DNA of 64,000 bases. Origin: Desulfuromonas sp. (GTDB lineage Bacteria > Desulfobacterota > Desulfuromonadia > Desulfuromonadales > Geopsychrobacteraceae). The translations under genes were made by a program, and so were the position numbers. Below the pieces are notes generated by a model that saw only the letters and a program-made list of their open reading frames with translations, was not told the origin of the DNA and did not search any database. Of this stretch, positions 9-720 are shown piece after piece. The first letter of the stretch is position 1. Each line of letters begins with the position of its first letter. The stretch is from assembly GCA_002869695.1 (NCBI GenBank), contig PKUD01000204.1:1-64000 (forward strand), read 5' to 3'.

Positions 9-133
9 TTGGTTCACGAAAAACCAAACCTGCTGCGAAGCGGGGGCGGAAAGCCACGGGTCTTTCCACGCAAACAACAAGATCGCCGAGCTACCGAAGG
101 ACTGATTCTTTCGGGATGCCCGGCTTTTTTATT
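9..133 (+). promoter_or_regulatory. GEMM-I cyclic dinucleotide riboswitch with overlapping terminator
   Basis: By eye the sequence follows the GEMM-I aptamer: AAACC, a first stem capped by a GCGA tetraloop (GNRA), the GGAAAGCC segment matching GCAAAGCC of the Vibrio Vc2 aptamer (conserved A47), a second stem, and the closing GCTACCGAAGG matching GTTACCGATGG. Bases 85-98 of the aptamer can also pair with 110-124 to form a hairpin followed by T6 (125-130), an intrinsic terminator. The two structures exclude each other, so ligand binding should free transcription of the DsrE-like gene at 202 (an ON switch). My alignment puts A at the position of Vc2 G20, a change reported for cyclic AMP-GMP-sensing Geobacter members. 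Class is fairly sure; ligand choice is inference. Confidence 0.8.
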
Positions 134-201
134 GGAGACTCAGAAAGACCCCACGCCTTTTCCAAACCTATGGGGACTAGCCCCGCAAAAGGAGAATTGC
201 C

Positions 202-720
202 ATGATCGCTAACCATAAAAAAACAACTCGCTGTTTCACCTTTCTGTTCTTGGTCGTTGCCTTCGTCACCCAGATGTCTGCCTCGGCCTTTGCTGAGGGC
301 TATGGCAAGGCTCTGAAGGGAGTGAACAACTATGACGCGGTATTTGAGGTGACCCAGGGGAATCCCGAGATTGCCAACATTGTCTTCTGGGCGGTCAGGA
401 ACGCCTACCAGGTTTCCGAGGTCAAGGGTCTGGCTAAGGCACCAAACGTTGCCGTTGTCTTTCATGGCCCTGCAGTGAAGCTGCTCTCTACCGATAAGAC
501 CCCTTTCAACGGAGCCCAGTGGGCTGAGGTGGAGAAGTTCCAGCAGACGCTCAGAGAGATGAAGGCCGATGGGGTGACCTTGGAAATATGCCTCTATGCC
601 GCCAAAGTGATGGGCGTGGACAAGGCCGCGATTCTCCCAGAGATTGACCAGGTGGGGAACGGTTTCGTCTCAGTGATTGGCTACCAGATGCAAGGATATG
701 CGGTTGTGCGCATTCCTTAG
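202..720 (+). CDS. Secreted DsrE-family protein
   Basis: Predicted 172-aa protein with a Sec signal peptide (basic start, hydrophobic residues about 12-25, cleavage near ASAFA/EG). The mature part resembles the DsrE/DsrF-like fold: alternating strand-helix pattern, a VAVVFHGPAVKLL strand-turn-helix near 80-92, and the family's terminal VIGYQMQGYAVVRIP segment. Family members handle sulfur or serve as small periplasmic proteins of unknown role. One cysteine is retained (in the LEICLYAAK stretch, about residue 133), where many family members carry a functional Cys. AAGGAG lies 7 nt before the ATG. It is the first gene behind the riboswitch, so its expression should follow a cyclic dinucleotide. 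Function beyond the family is unknown. Confidence 0.75.
   Translation: MIANHKKTTRCFTFLFLVVAFVTQMSASAFAEGYGKALKGVNNYDAVFEVTQGNPEIANIVFWAVRNAYQVSEVKGLAKAPNVAVVFHGPAVKLLSTDKTPFNGAQWAEVEKFQQTLREMKADGVTLEICLYAAKVMGVDKAAILPEIDQVGNGFVSVIGYQMQGYAVVRIP

Follow-up and report, generated by a model that had tools for sequence, protein, structure and literature searches.

The 64,000-nucleotide stretch analyzed here (the window) opens with a GEMM-I cyclic-dinucleotide riboswitch in front of a gene for a secreted DsrE-family protein. We found that this leader is a conserved G20-type DsrE switch that has lost its G20, and not a member of a standing class of cyclic AMP-GMP DsrE switches. The conserved pairing of the DsrE gene with a GEMM-I switch is new, as is the natural disappearance of G20 from one such switch. 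The register of the lost base is now occupied by an adenine, and on balance we lean slightly toward an aptamer that prefers, or at least clearly accepts, cyclic AMP-GMP.

A cmscan search of the whole window against all 4227 Rfam families returned a single match, the GEMM-I family RF01051 at 13–98 of the forward strand (54.1 bits against a cut-off of 35, E = 8.6e-8). Membership in this family is indicated by the score above the curated threshold, by the presence of the three-helix fold, and by the equivalents of A47 and C92, which are present as A50 and C94 (Table 1). The register of the aptamer was set from the Rfam model alignment and an alignment of 37 related aptamers. A covariance model built in this analysis (R1) and run over the ortholog loci gives the aptamer 75.4 bits. 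The variant family RF03167 (c-di-GMP-I-GGC) is the top-scoring Rfam family for the window, with 58.9 bits, just below its cut-off of 59. We rejected this identity because the RF03167 consensus has G at position 47 where the window has A50, and we ascribe the high score to general resemblance. In the same genome, several aptamers with a G21-C46 pair (L002, L007, and L009) score best with RF03168 (c-di-GMP-I-UAU) despite having G20 and A47, and Rfam variant names are therefore unusable as ligand-site calls in this order.

Table 1 Features of the DsrE leader and gene (window coordinates)
Feature	Position	Strand	Evidence
GEMM-I (c-di-GMP-I) aptamer	13–98	+	RF01051 54.1 bits; RF03167 58.9 bits; R1 75.4 bits
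P1 5′ strand (C17-G96, G18-C95)	17–18	+	Alignments; aptamer-forced fold
J1/2, 5 nt AAAAA; A23 in the Vc2 G20 register	19–23	+	Alignments; ortholog L170 has AAAAAG
C21 and C22 equivalents: C24-G49 (21-46 pair) and C25-G48 (22-45 pair), base of P2	24–25	+	Alignments
P2 hairpin, GCGA (GNRA) loop at 35–38	29–44	+	Rfam match; fold
A47 equivalent (intercalating adenine), A50	50	+	Alignment
P3 stem-loop	52–92	+	Rfam alignments; aptamer-forced fold
C92 equivalent, C94, pairs with ligand guanine	94	+	Alignment
P1 3′ strand, within terminator 5′ arm	95–96	+	Alignment; fold
Intrinsic terminator hairpin, 5′ arm 85–101 (overlaps aptamer P3/P1), 3′ arm 106–124	85–124	+	MFE −43.1 kcal/mol, z −3.27
Terminator U tract	125–130	+	Sequence
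Shine-Dalgarno AAGGAG	189–194	+	Sequence
DsrE/DsrF-like protein, 172 aa, signal peptide (likely cleavage after AFA, residue 31)	202–720	+	PF02635; orthologs

The downstream gene product matches PF02635 at 42.2 bits (threshold 22.7, E = 1.1e-10) and has C130 as its conserved cysteine. Together with the RF01051 match, this bears out the first-pass annotation of the region, made from the sequence alone, which had placed a GEMM-I aptamer ahead of a secreted DsrE-like gene. Matches of the DsrE profile in the PDB were to designed repeat proteins only, over about 38 columns, and were judged spurious. The window begins where contig C48 begins, in a genome of 219 contigs (G000), and the promoter is therefore out of view.

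Since P3 and P1 have their 3′ strands in the 5′ arm of the intrinsic terminator, terminator and aptamer, which share bases 85–98, are mutually exclusive. In 10 orthologous leaders, 93% of the cells in the terminator hairpin are paired, and neither any of 500 shuffles nor any slid register reaches its covariation. In fold calculations that carry no ligand term, RNA ending at base 98 has a free fold of −19.7 kcal/mol and an aptamer-forced fold of −16.1 kcal/mol, a gap of 3.6, and for RNA extending to base 130 the values are −40.2 and −21.9 kcal/mol, with the terminator winning by 18. As modeled, these energies at the two lengths describe the usual cotranscriptional decision. A conserved terminator that re-uses aptamer bases predicts an ON switch. 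Both the re-use and the ON switch had been proposed in the first pass, and the mutual exclusivity, the covariation, and the fold energies uphold them. The layout of a transcriptional ON switch is thus well supported, and we infer ON behavior in vivo. In the absence of ligand, 85–101 would pair with 106–124 and transcription would halt at T125–130; ligand binding would stabilize P1 and P3, and the riboswitch would in this way control the secreted DsrE-family protein, the ligand relieving the termination of transcription. The cyclic AMP-GMP switch of pilM in G. metallireducens has the same mutually exclusive ON layout (PMC9262584).

We sought the DsrE gene in 60 relatives, in named public genomes, and across the family and the order, and ran R1 over the loci. 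A GEMM-I aptamer lies directly upstream of the gene in 11 Desulfuromonadales species. Nine of the 11 leaders carry G20, as AAAGCC, whereas those of the window and L206 do not. In L206 the A20 belongs to a diverged aptamer in which, on our reading, P1 (UGA/UCA) and the terminator were altered together. The two A20 cases are not grouped in the protein tree, whose support is weak. The R1 search detected no aptamer at the ortholog loci L022, L024/L202, L025, L026, L176, and L183/L272. The pattern among the orthologs indicates that the ancestral DsrE switch carried G20, the cyclic di-GMP-type base, and that the window lineage lost it. The literature searched yielded no earlier description of a GEMM-I switch controlling DsrE, and only in this sense does the first-pass suggestion of a new kind of output hold; across species, DsrE is mainly an output of a G20 switch. 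A locus in a Geobacter sp. MAG (L207) was considered as a case of DsrE under cyclic AMP-GMP control and rejected. Its A20 aptamer (987–1067) lies about 900 nt upstream of a DsrE-family gene (2001–2474) with a gene for a small secreted protein between, and a strong inverted repeat between these two genes makes co-transcription doubtful. DsrE homologs 58–62% identical to the window protein are also present, without a riboswitch, in Marinobacter species and in a MAG labelled Halomonas (L178–L182, L216), which suggests gene transfer without the leader.

Position 20 was placed by Vc2 numbering, which agrees with the way J1/2, C15-G40, and A14 are assigned in the solved cyclic AMP-GMP aptamer (PMC6274999). 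Both the model alignment and the 37-aptamer alignment put A23 in the Vc2 G20 column, and J1/2 (A19–A23) contains no G. The earlier observation of an A where Vc2 has G20 is therefore correct, as the covariance-model alignment to RF01051 places no G there. The window thus lacks the G20 of GEMM-Ia and has the A20 of GEMM-Ib, the latter through the register of A23 and by loss of G20 relative to L170. The 6-nt J1/2 that is a usual, although not a published defining, trait of GEMM-Ib is 5 nt in the window. L170 (Desulfuromusa sp. AUK122, 70% protein identity) is among the closest orthologs. Its sequence is CACGAAAAAGCCAAACC at the place of CACGAAAAACCAAACC in the window, and the G is the sole difference between the two junctions. 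Most simply, the A beside P2 would have arisen by deletion of G20, since one deletion suffices and a G-to-A change would require a second deletion. The fold, the P1-P2-P3 arrangement, the GNRA loop, A47, and C92 are shared with the canonical cyclic di-GMP riboswitches (Vc2, Cd1; RF01051), but the 21-46 pair is C-G in the window and G-C in the canonical aptamers, and the G20 retained by the orthologous DsrE switches is gone.

Position 20 could be scored in 129 aptamers from 21 genomes (L002 and L003 are identical and were entered once); 80 have G, 49 have A, and all have A47. The genome of the window itself contains 20 GEMM-I aptamers, 12 with G20 and 8 with A20. A further GEMM-I aptamer in this genome, G000:C165:1-56 (L250), is cut by the contig end, carries G20 (AAAAGCCAAATTCG), and lies outside the family search list. 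The 5-nt J1/2 is frequent with G20 (33 of 71 aptamers) and rare with A20 (2 of 46; Fisher p = 3e-7, only a guide because the sequences are related). The other 44 scored A20 aptamers have a 6-nt J1/2, and the aptamer of the window is one of the two with 5 nt. Hence, it resembles a G20-lineage aptamer minus its G, and not a typical GEMM-Ib. We rejected the C21-G46 pair as a marker of cyclic AMP-GMP switches, as it accompanies G20 in 20 aptamers and A20 in another 20. CxxCH motifs were tried as a separate indicator of whether A20 denotes cyclic AMP-GMP in this order; such a motif is encoded in the downstream gene of 6 of 49 A20 and 2 of 72 G20 aptamers (p = 0.06).

The genome encodes a single Hypr GGDEF (L061, FKTINDNYGHLSGS..GGDEF), a REC-GGDEF protein of 457 aa whose gene adjoins hisS on contig C11 (G000:C11; L061:1456-2829, minus strand). 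Its Hypr signature consists of the Ser at the specificity position in GHLSGS together with GGDEF, so that a cognate synthase, as expected for GEMM-Ib, is present in the same genome. GacA of G. sulfurreducens is a characterized Hypr GGDEF (PMC6456294). Gs1761-type A20 aptamers occur as tandem pairs at two loci (G000:C42:6604-6973 and G000:C81:65100-65304), where they precede large secreted proteins with CxxCH motifs (cytochrome-like) and MopE-like repeats, and are probably the core cyclic AMP-GMP regulon. From its gene content the cell probably makes cyclic AMP-GMP, and given both the Hypr GGDEF and the tandem aptamers, the alternative ligand is very probably available to the switch. The Hypr Ser signature recurs in all 20 relatives examined, in each case in the best match. 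In three of these (G038, G040, and G042) the GEMM-I search found no aptamer; cyclic AMP-GMP must therefore be used otherwise there, or not at all.

Previous studies describe position 20 as a selectivity factor and not a hard filter (PMC9262584). Cyclic AMP-GMP binding is documented for a G20A GEMM-I aptamer (PMC7288161, PMC11352751). However, a protonated adenine allows cyclic AMP-GMP riboswitches to bind cyclic di-GMP as well, changes in lower P2 also alter selectivity, and mutating the G20 equivalent of Cd1 caused no clear change in cyclic di-GMP binding (PMC9262584). The A in the window is therefore suggestive, but not proof, of a cyclic AMP-GMP preference. In the solved Geobacter cyclic AMP-GMP riboswitch, J1/2 is the 6-nt A9–A14, P2 starts with C15-G40, and A14 is the A20 equivalent (PMC6274999). 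The switch of the window shares with the Geobacter GEMM-Ib switches (Gs1761/pgcA, Gm0970, and pilM) the A20 register, A47, C92, the C21-G46 pair, a terminator-based ON layout, and a Hypr GGDEF in the genome. It differs from them in its 5-nt J1/2 (theirs is 6 nt), in C22 where the ATACT type has U22, in its DsrE target in place of a cytochrome or pilus gene, and in its descent from a G20 switch family.

The first-pass proposal that the riboswitch senses cyclic AMP-GMP thus stands in part. The shared features just listed, with A47 and C92 as in the crystallized Geobacter aptamer, speak for it; the G20 of most orthologs, the origin of the A by a one-base deletion, the atypical J1/2, and the published leniency at position 20, with cyclic AMP-GMP aptamers also binding cyclic di-GMP, weigh against it. 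Given the Hypr GGDEF and the eight A20 aptamers among 20 in the genome, a shift to, or a relaxed acceptance of, cyclic AMP-GMP is plausible. The deletion of G20 would put an A beside the C21-G46 pair and most likely shift selectivity, so that the aptamer would accept the cyclic AMP-GMP supplied by the cell's Hypr GGDEF and probably still bind some cyclic di-GMP. More tentatively, a conserved cyclic di-GMP slot may have been re-aimed at cyclic AMP-GMP in one lineage by a natural G20 deletion, bringing a secreted, sulfur-handling DsrE-family protein into the Hypr/cyclic AMP-GMP regulon.

We consider it unlikely that the window holds an unchanged cyclic di-GMP switch, in which a J1/2 shortened to the length typical of G20 aptamers preserves the cyclic di-GMP pocket and both ligand and output are those of the orthologs. 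The G20 of 9 of the 11 orthologous leaders, the association of the 5-nt J1/2 with G20, and the tolerance at position 20 (PMC9262584) agree with such a switch, but J1/2 offers no G to contact the second guanine, and in combining A20 with C21-G46 the aptamer agrees with the solved cyclic AMP-GMP structure. Alternatively, the loss of G20 damaged the aptamer, leaving a weak or dead switch and a gene whose transcripts mostly terminate or whose expression is basal. The deletion did strike a position that is otherwise well conserved among the orthologs, and A20 is rare with a 5-nt J1/2. Nevertheless, the other core positions, P2, P3, the GNRA loop, and the terminator are all intact, the length alone is tolerated in G20 aptamers, where 5 nt is common, and A20 recurs in L206 with P1 and terminator changed together, which makes damage distinctly improbable. 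It is more improbable still that the G went missing through an error in sequencing or assembly, with 19–25 truly reading AAAAAGCC in place of AAAAACC in an ordinary cyclic di-GMP switch, for although the change is a single-base indel beside a run of A and the aptamer starts 12 bases from the end of a contig in a fragmented assembly, contig C48 is 155 kb long, no other part of the genome repeats bases 1–400 in a way that could account for misassembly, and A20 is common in the order (49/129). A second copy of the leader, against which the missing base could be checked, was sought in the genome and not found.

If the aptamer of the window has a ligand different from that of its orthologs, as we lean toward, the leaders would form a natural orthologous riboswitch pair differing at the selectivity position. 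Such a pair would allow the single-base rewiring of a gene between second messengers to be measured, and a sulfur-relay-type protein would be added to the cyclic AMP-GMP regulon. If not, the window adds a further GEMM-I switch, whose DsrE target is conserved and, in the literature searched, unreported.

The DsrE switches belong to a 'CC' subgroup with G20 and C21C22/G45G46, which also includes L012, L100, L107, L110, L113, L115, L125, L164, L165, L195, and others. The targets in this subgroup are mostly soluble enzyme or stress genes: YdhR monooxygenase, cupin, DUF1326, nitrilase, Hsp20, gamma-glutamyltranspeptidase, metallo-beta-lactamase fold, isochorismatase, and Usp. Judged by eye, G21-C46 aptamers more often have adhesin-like and signaling genes downstream. 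The 'CC' subgroup is possibly a distinct regulon or sub-specificity.
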